IMG/VR virus record: IMGVR_UViG_3300028394_000156
Coordinates: 1-39,243 of that record
From: a virus
Length of the DNA stretch: 39,243 bases
Direction: 5' to 3' (one strand)
Below are positions 24,511-39,151 of this stretch, one piece after another. Both the position numbers and the translations under genes were made by a program. How positions within the stretch are numbered: the stretch's first letter is position 1; every line of letters begins with the position of its first letter. The notes below the pieces were generated by a model. The model had not been told where the DNA came from. It did not search any database and saw nothing but the letters and a program-made list of their open reading frames with translations.

Positions 24511-25434
24511 TTAGTTTACAATTCCATATCTACTTCTTAAAAACTCGGCAGCTTCAGCATTCAACTGTTCTTCTTTTTTCTGCTTACTAAGTATTAAATT
24601 ACTATTTTGCACCTTTGCATAAATCTGTGTGCATTGTCTATATAGTAAACCAATATTAAAGTTAGCCTTTAAATATTTATCATCAAGCATCCATGCAGCC
24701 TGTATAAATACTTTAAAGTTATCCATCTTGCTTGTCGGATCAATCTTTTCAACCCATTCCAATAACAACTTTACATTCCTTGCATCAATAGGGTTAAGTA
24801 TATAATTGCCATTTAGTGTACGTGGATACTTTGCAGCGGAAACAGATTCATGAAAGGTGCAGAACATTTCGTAAGCGACAAAAATGTCGCTGGGTTGCTT
24901 CGGCTCGGCTTTTTCTTTCTTTTCACGCAACTTTTCTTTCTTTTTAACCTTGTCAGAGTCTAAGGAATCAGAGAAACCTTGCCTTGTAAAAGGATTTTTT
25001 ATCTCATCTTTTGTGTGCGAAAATTCGTTTTCGCATATATTATAATCTGTATTATTAACTGTATTATTAACTGTATTATTATGTTCACGTTTTCGTGTAG
25101 GCTGCTTTACTGTTTTCGTGAATTCTGCTTTCACGTTTTCGTTAAAGCTGCTTTCACATTTATGTTTGTTAGTTCTCAATCCTCTATTCCTTCCATCAAA
25201 AAAAAGTTGAATTATAAAATCTCTTTTCTTTAAATCGCTAATTATATTTGCTACTCTACCCTCTGATAAATTTACAAATTTTGCTAAGTATTCATTTGAT
25301 GCAAAACATCCACGGTCTGAGTTATCAAGAGAATCAATTTCTACAATTAAAACCTTTTCTATTAAAGTTAAATTTGTATTTAACCAAATTTCCTTTTTTA
25401 TCCAAACACCTTTAAAATCTCTAATTTCGTTCAT
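24511..25434 (-). CDS. Replication initiator, lambda O-like, with winged helix-turn-helix
   Basis: The N-terminal 90 residues look like a winged helix: FKGVWIKKEIWLN, then TLIEKVLIVEIDSLDN, FASNEYLAKFVNLSEGRVAN and a basic wing. Residues about 92-180 are a low-complexity polar and charged linker (NNTVNNTVNNT) and residues about 180-307 form a helical C-terminal domain that would recruit the helicase loader. As in lambda, the linker DNA contains direct repeats and an AT-rich block (25017-25170). No helicase or DNA polymerase gene is seen, so the host replisome is probably used. Confidence 0.7.
   Translation of the reverse strand: MNEIRDFKGVWIKKEIWLNTNLTLIEKVLIVEIDSLDNSDRGCFASNEYLAKFVNLSEGRVANIISDLKKRDFIIQLFFDGRNRGLRTNKHKCESSFNENVKAEFTKTVKQPTRKREHNNTVNNTVNNTDYNICENEFSHTKDEIKNPFTRQGFSDSLDSDKVKKKEKLREKKEKAEPKQPSDIFVAYEMFCTFHESVSAAKYPRTLNGNYILNPIDARNVKLLLEWVEKIDPTSKMDNFKVFIQAAWMLDDKYLKANFNIGLLYRQCTQIYAKVQNSNLILSKQKKEEQLNAEAAEFLRSRYGIVN
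25017..25170. other. Candidate replication origin inside the initiator gene
   Basis: Four imperfect repeats start at 25079, 25102, 25125 and 25148, with an exact 23-bp period and consensus near CTGCTTTCACGTTTTCGT. The period is not a multiple of three, so the repeats are kept at DNA level and do not appear as protein repeats. Next to them lie three 12-bp AT-rich units (CTGTATTATTAA, from 25047), a possible unwinding element, and an inverted repeat GCGAAAA/TTTTCGC with loop TTCG (25017-25034). This matches the lambda ori plan (four iterons plus AT-rich DNA within the O gene). Confidence 0.65.
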
Positions 25435-28822: not shown

Positions 28823-28969
28823 ATGTCTATTAAGAAAAAGAACGTAATGATGTCAGAGGAAACTCATTGTAAACTTATGGAGATTAGAATGAGAGTATAT
28901 AAGACAAAGGGGCTACTCTTAACTATGGAGAAAAGTATTTTGTATCTTATAGAAAATCAAAAGGATTAA
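28823..28969 (+). CDS. Ribbon-helix-helix-like small regulator (48 aa)
   Basis: The frame reads MSIKKKNVMMSEETHCKLME, then IRMRVYKTKGLLLTMEKSI and LYLIENQKD. The order short basic strand, helix (SEETHCKLMEIRMRVY), turn with Gly, and second helix (LTMEKSILYLIEN) fits an Arc/CopG-type DNA-binding fold. It has its own promoter-like box and terminator and stands in the divergent control region, so it may repress early or replication genes. Length is at the lower end for the family. The fold call is by pattern only. Confidence 0.55.
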   Translation: MSIKKKNVMMSEETHCKLMEIRMRVYKTKGLLLTMEKSILYLIENQKD

Positions 28970-28998
28970 AAGATAATTGTTTTTTGACTGTATTCGAA

Positions 28999-29025
28999 GC
29001 CGTGATGAATTGTCACGGCTTTTTT
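28999..29025 (+). terminator. Intrinsic terminator after the 48-aa gene
   Basis: GCCGTGA (28999-29005) pairs perfectly with TCACGGC (29013-29019), 7-nt loop, then six T. It makes the regulator a one-gene transcript. Confidence 0.9.
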
Positions 29026-29112
29026 ATTAAGGGGCAGTATGTCAATCACTATAATTAAACTGATCACTAATTACTAAAATCATTAACATGAATACTGGGG
29101 CATATATACAAT

Positions 29113-29155
29113 GTAATAATGCTTACCATAACAATTTATGTAAAATCATTATTAC
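29113..29155. repeat. Inverted repeat GTAATAATG/CATTATTAC
   Basis: Nine perfect pairs separated by 25 bases; inner bases may extend the pairing partly. It may be an operator or RNA hairpin near the terminator of the 48-aa gene. Confidence 0.5.
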
Positions 29156-29673
29156 GGTAGGCTATTGTTTAAATGGGGTAGGGGCTATTGCTGATGGAAA
29201 ACACCAGGAATTTGGCAAAATGCAAAATCATTTTTGAAAATGGTTAAATTAGACACAAACTGTCAAACGTATTCCTGTCAAAACATATTTTAAACTCAAG
29301 TAATTTATCTATATGTATAGGCATATATGTATTGGTAAAACCTATAGCTATTTTAATAAAAATGTAATGAGTATTTGTTTTGATTTAGCCTATAAACTAA
29401 TTATATATTTTATTGTAAAGTACGGTTAAATCGTACTCTTTTAATTTGTCAGTAAATGACAAGTATTCTACCGACAAACTTTGTAAAAGCTTTATAATAA
29501 ATTTTATAAATATTTCCAGAAATTATTTCAAAATTGATTTGATAAATAAATTGAATTAAAAGCAAAAATTAATAAAAAAATTAAAATTAAAATTTTTTAA
29601 AATTTTTTAAAAATTTTTTTTGAAAAATAAAAAAAAAACAGAAAGTGACGAAACCTCAGCCAAAAAAAAATGT

Positions 29674-29685
29674 CCGCGGCCGCGG
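29674..29685. repeat. GC-rich 12-bp perfect palindrome
   Basis: CCGCGGCCGCGG is fully self-complementary and lies in a very AT-rich neighbourhood, followed within 20 bases by another GTCGCGGTCGG stretch. Such an isolated GC island suggests a protein-binding or structural site. Confidence 0.6.
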
Positions 29686-29759
29686 TTGCCAAGTCGCGGT
29701 CGGAAATAAAAATTTTCCCAAAATTTTTGGACATCAACGGGAATGACGCAAAGTTTTTT

Positions 29760-29789
29760 AGCGCTTAGCGCTTCAAGCGCAGAAAGCGC
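29760..29789. repeat. Nested palindrome of GCGCTT/AAGCGC units
   Basis: AGCGC occurs four times, at 29760, 29767, 29776 and 29785. Units GCGCTT (29761-29766 and 29768-29773) pair with AAGCGC (29775-29780 and 29784-29789), giving a double-layer hairpin of about 12 pairs with a single-base loop. Confidence 0.6.
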
Positions 29790-29795
29790 AATAAG

Positions 29796-30044
29796 TCCTA
29801 CCAAAAAGGTAGGGTTTCCTTTTTTGGAAACTTTTGTAAGTTTTTTTTAAACCCTACTAAATTAGTAGGGTTTATTTGTCCTACTAAAAAGGTAGGGTTA
29901 ATTTTGGGCCGTACCAGGTTTCGGATTTTAAAAAAAAGTCCTATCAAAAAGGTAGGATTAAAAAAGTCCTATAAAAATAATAGGATTAATTTTTTGCTGC
30001 CAGAATTTTCGAATCTAAAAAAAAGTTCTACTAAAAACGTAGGG
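29796..30044. repeat. Array of six related hairpins (CCTAC...GTAGG)
   Basis: Stem arms and positions: CCTACC/GGTAGG (29797-29813), AAACCCTACT/AGTAGGGTTT (29849-29873), CCTAC/GTAGG (29880-29896), CCTATC/GGTAGG (29940-29956), TCCTAT/ATAGGA (29967-29985), CTAC/GTAG (30028-30042). Most loops are A-rich (AAAAA), most units are preceded by an A-run then GTCC, and followed by GGGTT or GGATTA. Base changes in one arm are often matched in the other, which indicates that the paired structure is kept. Confidence 0.7.
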
Positions 30045-30148
30045 TTAATTTTGTCCCTCGAAACAAATTTTTAAAAAATTGATTTTGTTAAATTTTTGAT
30101 CCTATATTATAAAAGCAAAAAATAATAATTAAAAAAAAATAAAAAATA

Positions 30149-30179
30149 TTTGCATTTATAAAATTATTATGTAAATTTG
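30149..30179 (+). promoter_or_regulatory. Bacteroidota-type promoter for the early small genes
   Basis: TTTG (30149-30152) and TAAATTTG (30172-30179) are separated by 19 nt, matching the -33/-7 consensus of this phylum. Transcription would begin near 30185, about 35 nt before the first ATG at 30220, and could run to the terminators at 32526-32638. Confidence 0.65.
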
Positions 30180-30219
30180 CATATCAATTTTTTTTAAAAC
30201 AGTCAAAAAAACAAACGAC

Positions 30220-30480
30220 ATGAAAAATTCAGTAAAAAATTTAAGTCCTTTAGAATTCAATTCAAGGCAATTTGTACAAAAAAATTTCGATTTATTTTTA
30301 GATGCATTAATGTTATGCGACTCAAAAAAATTATCTAAATTATTTGAAAATGATGAATTATTTGAGTGTTTGTGTTTGCACCTGAAAAATGGTAATTTAG
30401 TATGTTTTACATATATGCAAACATATTTAAACGAACTTTTAAGGGAATTTGCAAAAGAGATGCAAGAATATTTTTCCTAA
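30220..30480 (+). CDS. Unknown 86-aa early protein
   Basis: A helical protein (NSRQFVQKNFDLFLDALMLC, KKLSKLFENDELFECLCLHL) with several Cys and a Glu-rich C-terminus (EFAKEMQEYFS). First gene after the 30149 promoter, with the shared AACAGTCAAA leader. Small early proteins of this kind often alter host functions; nothing specific is visible. Confidence 0.6.
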   Translation: MKNSVKNLSPLEFNSRQFVQKNFDLFLDALMLCDSKKLSKLFENDELFECLCLHLKNGNLVCFTYMQTYLNELLREFAKEMQEYFS

Positions 30481-30490
30481 CAATCAAAAC

Positions 30491-30509
30491 AGCCGGCTAA
30501 TAACCGGCT
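30491..30509 (+). other. Hairpin between first and second early genes
   Basis: AGCCGG (30491-30496) pairs with CCGGCT (30504-30509), 7-nt loop. A T-run is almost absent (ACATTTT), so it is at most a weak terminator or an mRNA processing or stabilising stem just before the next AACAGTCAAA leader. Confidence 0.5.
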
Positions 30510-30539
30510 ACATTTTAAAACAGTCAAACAACAAAAAAA

Positions 30540-31406
30540 ATGGAAACAACAATTTTAACAACAGTTAACCCTATTTTTGAAGCATTTGAAAAATTATCTA
30601 AAAGTTTAGGTGATCGTAAAAGTTTAGATTATTTAATGGAAAACTACGATCAAGAAACACTAAAAAAAGAGTTAGTGTATTTTTCTAAAAGTTATCTAAT
30701 TTCAACAGTACAAAGCGAAATAGAAAGCATGAATAAATACAAAAGGAAATTATCTACTTTTGAAGATCTTGTAAAATATTTACTTAAAAACATTTGTAGT
30801 AAGGATCAATTAAGGCCGGCAATGTGTAAAGTATATAACGATCAAAAAAATGGTAATTTAGTAGCAACTGACGCGCATATTTTAGCTTGGCTACCTTTGC
30901 AAAATTTACCTATAAATGATTCTTTAGATAATATATGCAAAGAAGATTCAGAAGATTATTATAAAATTTATAGCTATTCTGAAAATAGCTTTAAATTGGA
31001 TAAATACGGCGACATTGTAAATGAAGACATGGATAATAGGTATCCTGACTATAAGGCCGTTTTTCCTATACCAAACTTGTTAGATTATCCTTATTTTTCA
31101 ATTAATCCTTATTTGTTTAATGGATTAAAAACAATTAGTAAAATTGCCAAAAAATTAAAGATAAATATTTTAATGGTGAAATTAAATTGCCTTGAATATA
31201 ACACATATTTAAATATATCCTTATTAGTAAGGTATATTGATTTACATCAAAAATTATATGGTAATTATACTTTTTTGGCACTGACTCGCAATGGATATGA
31301 AGAGGGAAAAGCTTTATATAATGTAGATATTTGTGGAAAATATAAATTATTATTAATGCCTTGCATAAAGTCAGATGAAGAAAATATTTTAGATCTTGAT
31401 TTATAA
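30540..31406 (+). CDS. Unknown 288-aa protein, possibly sliding-clamp-like
   Basis: Residues about 75-120 contain YLLKNICSKDQLRPAMCKVY and NGNLVATDAHILAWLPL; VATDAHILA resembles the ATDGHRLA signature of DnaN-type sliding clamps, and a C-terminal stretch (YNVDICGKYKLLLMPC) is also beta-rich. A full three-domain clamp is not evident, and 288 aa is shorter than DnaN. It may be a diverged or partial clamp or a protein that mimics it. It has the shared early leader and is followed by a long hairpin. Confidence 0.55.
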   Translation: METTILTTVNPIFEAFEKLSKSLGDRKSLDYLMENYDQETLKKELVYFSKSYLISTVQSEIESMNKYKRKLSTFEDLVKYLLKNICSKDQLRPAMCKVYNDQKNGNLVATDAHILAWLPLQNLPINDSLDNICKEDSEDYYKIYSYSENSFKLDKYGDIVNEDMDNRYPDYKAVFPIPNLLDYPYFSINPYLFNGLKTISKIAKKLKINILMVKLNCLEYNTYLNISLLVRYIDLHQKLYGNYTFLALTRNGYEEGKALYNVDICGKYKLLLMPCIKSDEENILDLDL

Positions 31407-31418
31407 ACCAACAAAAAA

Positions 31419-31443
31419 AGGATCCTATAATATATAGGATCCT
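31419..31443 (+). other. Ten-base-pair hairpin AGGATCCTAT/ATAGGATCCT
   Basis: Perfect ten-pair stem (31419-31428 with 31434-31443) and a 5-nt loop, followed by ATAAACTTTATTTTT. It may be a weak terminator or a stabilising 3' structure between two early genes, like those at 30491 and 32526. Confidence 0.6.
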
Positions 31444-31480
31444 ATAAACTTTATTTTTAAACAGTCAAACAACAAAAAAA

Positions 31481-31786
31481 ATGGAAACAACAGATTTTAT
31501 CAACTCTTTAAAATGTTCAGATTTACAAAGTTTTGTACTTGTTCTTCAGGCTTATAATAGTCAATACGATACAAGAAATTTAAACATAGAAGATATTGGA
31601 TTCAATATCTATTCAGGATATGTATATTTTCATTTAGAAAATGATATTACTATTTGCTCTTGTTTTGGTAATTCTGTAGAATATCTTACTACAAATTATA
31701 AAAACGGCGAAGAAAACTTTTTCGATACCTACAGCGAAGCAATAAATTTTTTAAAATACGGCGACGAAGAAAGCGAAGAAGCATGA
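31481..31786 (+). CDS. Unknown 101-aa acidic early protein
   Basis: Acidic protein, rich in Asp/Glu/Tyr (FNIYSGYVYFHLENDITICS), ending in DEESEEA. Acidic small early proteins sometimes mimic DNA to block host enzymes, but no direct evidence exists here. The stop overlaps a 46-aa membrane gene (ATGA). Confidence 0.6.
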   Translation: METTDFINSLKCSDLQSFVLVLQAYNSQYDTRNLNIEDIGFNIYSGYVYFHLENDITICSCFGNSVEYLTTNYKNGEENFFDTYSEAINFLKYGDEESEEA

Positions 31787-31923
31787 AGAAAATCGAATTA
31801 ATTTTATCTTTAATACTTTTAGATTTTTTTTATTATGTTACTATTTTTTTAGTAGTTTACTACATTTATAAAATGGATCAAAAAGGTAGAAAGGCAATAA
31901 GAGACAAAAACAAAATAGATTAA
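31783..31923 (+). CDS. Small membrane protein (46 aa)
   Basis: Starts MKKIELILSLILLDFFYYVT, continues IFLVVYYIYK as one long hydrophobic helix, then a basic tail (MDQKGRKAIRDKNKID). It overlaps the acidic gene by ATGA and lacks its own AACAGTCAAA leader, so it is probably translated by coupling. It may act at the host membrane, for example in superinfection exclusion; this is only a possibility. Confidence 0.6.
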   Translation: MKKIELILSLILLDFFYYVTIFLVVYYIYKMDQKGRKAIRDKNKID

Positions 31924-31949
31924 TTTTTTAACAGTCAAAAACTAAAAAA

Positions 31950-32195
31950 ATGAGATATTACGTATTAATTGAATGGAACGGCAAAGGATCTGGTGAAACA
32001 GTAAAAAAAAGTAATAGGAAATTAGACATGATTATTTTTAGAAATTTTATCTATACAGTAAAACAAGCTAAAAAGAAATATTATCTAAATTACTTTAATT
32101 CATTGGACGTGCCATGTAGTGAAATATTAAGCTACAAAACAGAAATAGACTATTTAACCGGCAAAGATCCTTTAAGTAGGAAAGTATATTATTAA
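31950..32195 (+). CDS. Unknown 81-aa basic early protein
   Basis: Basic and Tyr/Lys-rich (RYYVLIEWNGKGSGETVKKS, KQAKKKYYLNYFNSLDVP). The beta start and basic face may fit a nucleic-acid or protein-binding role. It has the shared leader. Confidence 0.6.
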   Translation: MRYYVLIEWNGKGSGETVKKSNRKLDMIIFRNFIYTVKQAKKKYYLNYFNSLDVPCSEILSYKTEIDYLTGKDPLSRKVYY

Positions 32196-32231
32196 TAAAC
32201 TTTATTTTTAAACAGTCAAAAACAAAAAAAA

Positions 32232-32504
32232 ATGGGAAAATTTAAAGAAGCATTGTATACAAATACTGAAAAATTTGCTAATAAGTACGGCGACATTTTT
32301 ATAAGTTTGTACTGTTATGAGTACAACAATGAATATAAAAAACCGTGTGACTTACCTAAAGAATTAGATCAAACTGTAATTAATACTATTATATTTTTGT
32401 TAGATCATTATTTTAATTCTATCATAGAAGATGACAAAGAAATAAATATTAATTTAATAGATACTGAAATGTTATTTGATTTATTAGAATTGTATGACTA
32501 TTAA
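32232..32504 (+). CDS. Unknown 90-aa acidic early protein
   Basis: Helical acidic protein (TEKFANKYGDIFISLYCYEY, DQTVINTIIFLLDHYFNSII), ending LLELYDY. Last gene of the early string; two terminators follow. Confidence 0.6.
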   Translation: MGKFKEALYTNTEKFANKYGDIFISLYCYEYNNEYKKPCDLPKELDQTVINTIIFLLDHYFNSIIEDDKEININLIDTEMLFDLLELYDY

Positions 32505-32525
32505 ACAATCAAGGTAATTTTATTA

Positions 32526-32562
32526 AAAGGTATCCTAATTAATTTTAGGATACCTTTTTTTA
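32526..32562 (+). terminator. Intrinsic terminator of the early transcript
   Basis: AAAGGTATCCT (32526-32536) pairs with AGGATACCTTT (32547-32557), followed by T to 32561. It is strong and of classical form. Confidence 0.85.
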
Positions 32563-32598
32563 TTTGCTTAATACTTTATTTCTTATTACATACTATAA

Positions 32599-32638
32599 AG
32601 TTATTTGGATATCAATTGATATCAGGATAACTTTTTTT
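32599..32638 (+). terminator. Second, tandem terminator
   Basis: AAGTTAT (32599-32605) pairs with ATAACTT (32627-32633); inside lies the perfect palindrome GATATCAATTGATATC (32608-32623). Seven T follow the C at 32631. The two terminators in a row separate early genes from the late promoter region. Confidence 0.8.
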
Positions 32639-32757
32639 ATTGCCAGGTAACAAGCTAATTAAATTTGTCTTATATTTTAATTGTAATCAATGATAAATAA
32701 AAACAAAGCTATAACACTACATTAAAACAAACATAGCTTAAATTTAAAATATAGCGT

Positions 32758-32897
32758 TTAGATCATTACTATAGTACTGTAGTACTGTAGTTAGCTATCC
32801 TTAGATCATTACTATAGTACTGTAGTACTGTAGTTAGCTATCCTTAGATCATTACTATAGTACTGTAGTACTGTAGTTAGCTATCCTTAGATCATTA
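32758..32897. repeat. Three exact tandem 43-bp repeats plus an 11-bp partial copy
   Basis: Identical units at 32758-32800, 32801-32843 and 32844-32886; TTAGATCATTA (32887-32897) starts a fourth. Each unit contains CTATAGTAC-TGTA-GTACTGTAG, a nine-pair hairpin with one G-U, and two TAGTACTG copies. The array is not coding. It could be a binding array for a replication, packaging or transcription protein. Confidence 0.85.
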
Positions 32898-33125
32898 TTT
32901 TTTTTTGCCTTGAAAAATCCTGGAAACAAGCAAAACAAGGCAAAAAATAGCGAAAAAAGGCAAAAAAGGCCTATTTTGGCCAAAAACCCTATAAACCCTA
33001 TTGGACATGTAGGGTTTCAAAGGGCCGGGCAGGGTCAGGCCGATTTTGGCACGAAGAACCATTGTCGGGCCCCACGTTTTCAGGTCAATCCAAAAATATC
33101 AATGGTGGGTATAAAAAAATAATTG
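32898..33125 (+). other. GC-rich non-coding stretch before the packaging genes; candidate cos/pac region
   Basis: Its base composition is clearly richer in G and C than its surroundings. It contains GGCCTATTTTGGCC near 32968, the hairpin AAACCCTA/TAGGGTTT (32993-33000 with 33010-33017), GGGCCGGGCAGGGTCAGG and a GGGCCC site. A 70-codon frame starting with TTG at 32910 exists, but its composition is unlike a phage protein here. Location just upstream of HNH and terminase genes fits a DNA cutting site, without proof. Confidence 0.4.
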
Positions 33126-37813: not shown

Positions 37814-39151
37814 ATGTTGAAATCAGATGAATTAAAACAGTCGCGTTCCGCTAAAATAGAAGAAATGCGCACTTTGATTTCTGCTATCGAAACATTGGGT
37901 GCAAATGCCAATGACGATCAAAGATCAAAATTAAACACGATTAGGACAGAGGTCACCAATTTAGAGAATGATATTGATAATCATTTGATGATTGAGGCCG
38001 AAACTAAAAGAATGGCTACTCCTGCAACAAAAGTTAACGAAAACAAAGTTAACGATGAGCAAAGAGTTAAAAAAGGTTATTCATTCCTTAGAGCGGCTAA
38101 TCTTATTGCTAATAACAAAAACCTTGATGGTTTAGAATTAGAGATGCACCAAGAGGCTGAAAGAGAATTTAAACAAGCTGGTATCTCCGCTTCCGGTAAC
38201 CTTTACATTCCTAAGATGATTGTAAAGAATGAGAAGAGAGATATGACCGCTACGAGTGCGGTTGCTGGTGGTAATACTGTACCAACTATTTTGGGTGATT
38301 TAATTCCATTCCTTGACCCAAGATTGGCAGTTATTCAAGCTGGTGCAACCTTACTTACAGGATTGACTGGTAATTTAGATTTTCCTCGTAATGATGCTGC
38401 GGCTACTGCGGTTTGGGAAACTGAAAACTCTGCCAATGATGAAACAAGTCCAACTTTTGATAAAATTAGTATGTCACCTAATCGTTTAGGTGCGTTTACT
38501 AATATTTCAAAGCAATTACTTGTTCAATCATCTATTGACGTTGAGAATTTTGTAAGAAATCGTTTGAGCGAAGCAGTTAACAGAGCATTAGATTATGCTT
38601 TGATTAATGGCGATAATTCAACGCAACCATTCTTCGGTATTTTAAATACTGCTGGTATTGGTTCGGTTGCAATCGGTACTGATGGTGGTCCTTTGACATA
38701 CAAGCATATTATTGACCTTGAAACTGCTTTGGCTACTGATAATGCTGACTTTGGTACATTAGCTTACCTTACTACACCTGGTGTAAGAGGTTTCTTAAAG
38801 AATACTGAAAAAGCAAGTGGTACTGCTCAATTTGTTTGGAATGATGGTGCGCCACCAGTTGGACAACAAGGAGTTAGAACTGACTTGTTAAACGGATACC
38901 GTGCTTATGTTTCGACGCAAGTACCAAGCAACTTAACTAAAGGTGGTGGAACTAATTTACATTCAGTAATTTTTGGAAACTTTGCTGAATTGTTAATTGG
39001 ACAATGGGCTGGTTTAGATGTTGTAGTTGATCCATACTCATCAAGCAAAAATGCATTAGTTACCATTGTAGTTAACTCATGGTGGGATTCTGCCGTTCGT
39101 CATGCTAAATCATTTTCCGCTATTAAAGATGCGGATATTACTGGTATTTAA
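37814..39151 (+). CDS. Major capsid protein, HK97 fold (complete copy)
   Basis: A 445-aa precursor, starting MLKSDELKQSRSAKIEEMRT. Residues 1-110 are charged coiled-coil sequence like the HK97 delta domain removed by the protease. The shell domain follows, with NTVPTILGDLIPFLDPRLAV, a VWETENSANDETSPTFDKIS segment, the helix NFVRNRLSEAVNRALDYALI and the C-terminal region DVVVDPYSSSKNALVTIVV. One base separates it from the protease gene. The five residues differing from the left copy are scattered. Confidence 0.95.
   Translation: MLKSDELKQSRSAKIEEMRTLISAIETLGANANDDQRSKLNTIRTEVTNLENDIDNHLMIEAETKRMATPATKVNENKVNDEQRVKKGYSFLRAANLIANNKNLDGLELEMHQEAEREFKQAGISASGNLYIPKMIVKNEKRDMTATSAVAGGNTVPTILGDLIPFLDPRLAVIQAGATLLTGLTGNLDFPRNDAAATAVWETENSANDETSPTFDKISMSPNRLGAFTNISKQLLVQSSIDVENFVRNRLSEAVNRALDYALINGDNSTQPFFGILNTAGIGSVAIGTDGGPLTYKHIIDLETALATDNADFGTLAYLTTPGVRGFLKNTEKASGTAQFVWNDGAPPVGQQGVRTDLLNGYRAYVSTQVPSNLTKGGGTNLHSVIFGNFAELLIGQWAGLDVVVDPYSSSKNALVTIVVNSWWDSAVRHAKSFSAIKDADITGI

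Follow-up and report, generated by a model that had tools for sequence, protein, structure and literature searches.

A dyad array around a predicted promoter, probably an operator cluster, at the head of a right-end gene island in uncultivated phages

What is the role of a row of six short inverted repeats in gene-free phage DNA: do they act as RNA or as DNA? The window analysed here (39,243 bases) is a complete IMG/VR record from an uncultivated phage, and an earlier note had described the repeats as hairpins with compensated arm changes, their structure seemingly conserved while the sequence drifts, and had offered a regulatory RNA, a protein-binding array or an RNA decoy as readings. Chance does not account for the six inverted repeats at 29797-30043, which are real. 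All lie on the + strand, and their centres are given relative to a predicted promoter, P1, discussed below: H1 (29797-29813, CCTACCAAAAAGGTAGG, centre about -106), H2 (29853-29869, CCTACTAAATTAGTAGG, about -50), H3 (29880-29896, CCTACTAAAAAGGTAGG, about -23), H4 (29940-29956, CCTATCAAAAAGGTAGG, about +38), H5 (29968-29984, CCTATAAAAATAATAGG, about +66) and H6 (30027-30043, TCTACTAAAAACGTAGG, about +125). They share a 17 bp form, [CT]CTAY-N7-RTAGG, a single orientation and A-rich centres, with start-to-start spacings of 56, 27, 60, 28 and 59; the arms of H2 lengthen to AAACCCTACT/AGTAGGGTTT. The pattern YCTAY-N7-RTAGR has seven matches in the window against 0.40 expected (maximum of three in 100 shuffles), the fold z-score is -5.3 and the region holds no credible gene, so the repeats, their A-rich loops and their gene-free setting stand as first described. 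The seventh match, at 32997, is not counted as an array unit; it lies inside an ORF (32910-33122) kept in relatives, which differ there at third codon positions (peptide NPIGHVGFQ).

Pattern and protein searches of IMG/VR found six more distinct array phages (L005, L006, L007, L008, L091 and L017, the last occurring also as L090 and L092 and counted once). Each carries four to six units at the equivalent location, which, where the contig extends far enough, is between a 48-aa gene that adjoins SSB and the first rightward gene. A sequence immediately upstream of the array, GGGAATGACGC (29739-29749), is invariant in all seven phages. A DNA search of the window against named phages gave no match, and the exact dyad unit is absent from 84,980 bacterial and archaeal genomes by pattern search. 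A tandem-dyad scan of all IMG/VR viral contigs revealed no unrelated non-coding array of this kind, its only other matches being scattered pairs and coding repeats of Gly-rich or collagen-like type. One further contig, L089, was rejected as a relative (its shared 18-mer is a chance match), as was a mobile hairpin family, since the exact unit has no bacterial genome match and no dispersed copies. The identity between equivalent slots in different phages is 87-88%, against 62-68% between copies inside one phage; the array is therefore old and its positions are individually maintained, and by this comparison the slots predate the divergence of the array phages. A simple recent duplication, evidence for which the earlier note had named as part of what would refute its reading, does not describe it.

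The seven phages provide 38 units, 35 of which form the aligned set. The spacer is 7 in 38 of 38 units; the unit finder presupposed N7, and a looser scan (loops of 4-11) likewise gave the array copies a loop of 7. Across the 38 units CCTA and TAGG hardly vary, and the Y and R positions change independently of each other. In the 35 aligned units the fifth arm position is C-G 14 times, U-G 14 times, C-A six times and U-A once, the single U-A being the window's own CCTAT/ATAGG copy; Fisher's test for pairing at this position, over all 38 units, gives p = 0.20. The paired-cell fraction and the count of compensated pairs match those of shuffled columns, as does the covariation score (0.246 versus 0.241 shuffled, the chance level). 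The compensated changes read from the single sequence are thus not borne out among relatives, which show the reverse of a structure conserved through drift: fixed half-sites, and pairing without covariation. Y/R drift in repeated dyads can mimic covariation if a single sequence is judged. The test for a structured RNA family, covariation-supported base pairs in relatives, failed, and no Rfam family matched within the window. In this alignment the repeats do not behave as conserved RNA hairpins. Each half reads CCTAY on its own strand and the halves vary independently, so the unit behaves like a double-stranded DNA site for a dimer.

The array surrounds a predicted promoter. The -7 box of the Bacteroidetes sigma-A promoter is TAnnTTTG (B. 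fragilis, F. johnsoniae and F. psychrophilum), with an additional TTTG near -33 in B. fragilis (PMC7366714, PMC9723704); the -7 box is placed at -12 to -5 (PMC9723704). With this consensus, P1 (29875-29906, + strand) consists of TTTG (29875-29878), a 20-bp spacer and TAATTTTG (29899-29906), with a start predicted near 29911. A second predicted promoter, P2 (30149-30179, + strand; TTTG-N19-TAAATTTG, start predicted near 30184), has no dyad, and its -33 and -7 boxes are matched in all seven phages. The two strands of the window together hold three copies of TTTG-N19/20-TAnnTTTG (19526, P1 at 29875 and P2 at 30149), and the probability of such a pattern landing in the array is 0.0015. The P1 motif is kept in 7/7 phages, with H3 inside its -33/-7 spacer in every one, a placement that the earlier note had missed; H2, directly upstream of P1, is likewise kept in all seven. 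In the aligned intergenic regions the longest block invariant in 7/7 phages (29866-29883, + strand) comprises the right half of H2, the -33 box and the left half of H3, the second longest (29893-29906, + strand) comprises the right half of H3 and the -7 box, and the H3 centre between these blocks varies. P1 is probably active, judging from consensus and conservation. The host is probably a species of Bacteroidota, a phylum itself deduced from the type of promoter and leader.

Of the three readings offered earlier, the DNA-binding array fits best, because the half-sites are conserved as sequence, covariation is absent and a conserved promoter incorporates one of the dyads; support weakens for both the regulatory RNA and the decoy. 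We consider it probable that the repeats are a cluster of dyad operators, YCCTAY-N7-RTAGGR (17-19 bp), for a putative dimeric regulator, lying around and inside the promoter that opens the right-end island. What is observed is a set of repeated dyads with conserved half-sites overlapping a promoter, itself recognized by consensus and conservation. The spacings between dyads (27-28 and 56-60 bp) do not correspond to a whole number of helical turns, which counts against the operator model. Under that model, a dimer on H3 would cover the P1 -33/-7 spacer and H2 would hold a second just upstream of P1; H1 and H4-H6 would be extra sites that raise local occupancy or permit looping. Protein binding to the dyads and the sign of its effect are both deduced from this arrangement. 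The simplest outcome would be a P1 that stays repressed as long as the regulator has not been removed or diluted, and activation from within the spacer, of the MerR kind, is an alternative. In either case the array over P1 would control an AT-rich gene island of about 4 kb, and what had been supposed to be a new RNA family would become a concrete promoter-operator region in uncultivated phages.

The lambda operators OR and OL, bound by CI and Cro, are several 17-bp dyad sites that overlap a promoter, with half-sites kept and the centre free. The present dyads resemble them in length, in position over a promoter and in having conserved half-sites with a free centre. They differ in number and extent (four to six sites over 250 bp as against three), in sequence and spacing, in their Bacteroidota-type promoter boxes, in that no recognized repressor gene was found, and in the proposed target, an accessory right-end island. 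In MerR operators the dyad sits between the two promoter boxes, in the spacer, and H3 is centred in the P1 spacer in the same way; unlike those operators, the array has further dyads both upstream and downstream. The P1 spacer of 20 is also just one above that of P2, and no MerR-family gene was seen among the window proteins scanned.

A structured + strand RNA, whose hairpins would act as the leader of the P1 transcript, a protein-binding RNA or a decoy, is an unlikely alternative. The array folds better than shuffles on the + strand (z = -5.3) and less so on the - strand (-3.5), although any set of dyads would fold so; U.G is commoner than C.A at the variable pairs on the + strand, but not beyond column composition, and the A-rich loops and uniform orientation of the copies also suit an RNA. 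Besides the missing covariation and the C.A mismatch at the fifth pair in six of 35 units, this reading has to contend with a minimum-energy fold that pairs neighbouring repeats together and does not form six hairpins, and with P1 itself, which splits the array so that its transcript would hold one to four repeats depending on the phage. None of the seven phages shows a strong + strand promoter upstream, nor is there a conserved one that has a good -33 box. Decoy RNAs of the CsrB/RsmZ type are likewise rows of small stem-loops; the array differs from them in having no GGA loops, no covariation and an internal promoter.

The remaining alternatives are less probable still. An array of transcription terminators or attenuators between divergent gene blocks would account for the eight terminator-like matches that a consensus scan finds in the region against 1.1 expected, several repeats among them, and for the T-runs on the minus strand at some copies. 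The stems, however, have just 5-6 pairs (2-3 of them G-C), the + strand tails (for instance GTTTATTTG and GTTAATTTTG) have no T-runs, the neighbouring small gene already has a strong terminator (28996-29022), and the fusion of promoter boxes to one copy is left unexplained; we regard this reading as improbable. Marginally more doubtful is a set of replication-origin iterons like the O-protein palindromes of phage lambda, which are very similar in form (tandem palindromes with an A-rich centre, for example TCCCTCAAAACGAGGGA). The phage does have an O-like initiator gene (24511-25434), the cumulative GC skew changes direction close to 29 kb, and an AT-rich tract adjoins the array, but the skew tracks gene direction too. 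The array is outside the O-like gene, 4.4 kb from it, and that gene holds lambda-style iterons of its own (25084-25161, a 23-bp repeat present 3.4 times, palindrome TTCACGAAAACGTGAA), with AT-rich 12-mers beside them (25038-25081), the standard place; the array was dropped as a lambda-type origin. The stretch 25038-25161 is itself a lambda-style origin within this O-like replication gene. A packaging or end site (cos) would suit the array's position, which is on the intergenic side where the terminase genes lie. It is very improbable unless the terminase binds the array, with the likely genome end at about 33074, 3 kb away (more than 15 contigs), and with two related contigs (L083 and L084) that share TerS (95%) and TerL (94%) yet have no array.

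The array lies in an AT-rich island (28962-33100) with 24-28% GC in most 1-kb blocks, and is limited to phages that carry this island. L083 and L084, which also carry the 48-aa gene, share the flanks and have nothing matching the window's 28962-33100. More than 15 related contigs begin at the base equivalent to about 33074 in the window, where about ten variable bases are followed by a conserved AATCAATCC-like sequence; this point is very likely a cos end, given the shared contig ends, and the island would then form the right-hand end of the linear genome. A perfect 43-bp tandem repeat (32758-32897, 3.3 copies) with internal palindromes precedes the island's end; L008 has a different short repeat in its place. 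The island encodes an 86-aa protein, a sliding-clamp-like protein and three small genes. The 86-aa gene (30220-30480, + strand) comes first and is the only island gene present in all seven array phages. The clamp-like gene (30540-31406, + strand) has remote similarity to the DNA polymerase sliding clamp DnaN (E = 2.9e-7 to 8dt6), and neither named phages nor the 84,980 bacterial and archaeal genomes contain a relative of its protein; a structure model of low confidence (pLDDT 37) was not used.

Searches of the island proteins with Pfam and PHROGs identified no regulator with a recognized DNA-binding fold and no HTH. The one candidate binder, which we do not favour, is the 48-aa ribbon-helix-helix-like protein (28823-28969, + strand), present in all array phages whose contig reaches that far. 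Its fold assignment is weak, and it was rejected as the binder on the ground that its N-terminal strand is identical in phages with no array.

The island genes share a second feature. The leader ACAGTCAAA has five copies on the + strand of the window (30199, 30520, 31461, 31931 and 32212), each positioned 19-21 nt upstream of the start codon of an island gene; all five island genes bear it (ACAGTCAAAAAC, also written ACAGUCAAA), and + strand copies occur nowhere else in the window. The analysis points to an accessory island whose genes share a single control leader. The sole complement in the window, a - strand match to ACAGTCAAA at 28991, falls within the 48-aa gene's 3'UTR, immediately ahead of the terminator, in a region (28977-29022) where UUGUUUUUUGACUGU, complementary to the leader, precedes the terminator at 28996-29022. 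Predicted duplex energies of leader and 3'UTR are about -13 to -16 kcal/mol and beat nearly all shuffles; the pairing holds likewise in relatives that carry the island, and L083 and L084 lack the 3'UTR motif. A small RNA from the 3'UTR of the 48-aa gene may therefore pair with all island leaders, as this complementarity suggests. More speculatively, the island could be a two-layer regulon in which the array switches P1 and a single small RNA, cut from the 3'UTR or ending there, targets the leader of every island mRNA; we hold this to be possible rather than probable. If true, one phage small RNA would govern the translation of all the accessory island genes together.

The major capsid gene is found at both ends of the record (1-1309 and 37843-39151), the first 300 bases being about 96% identical; either the gene is duplicated or two strains overlap in the assembly.
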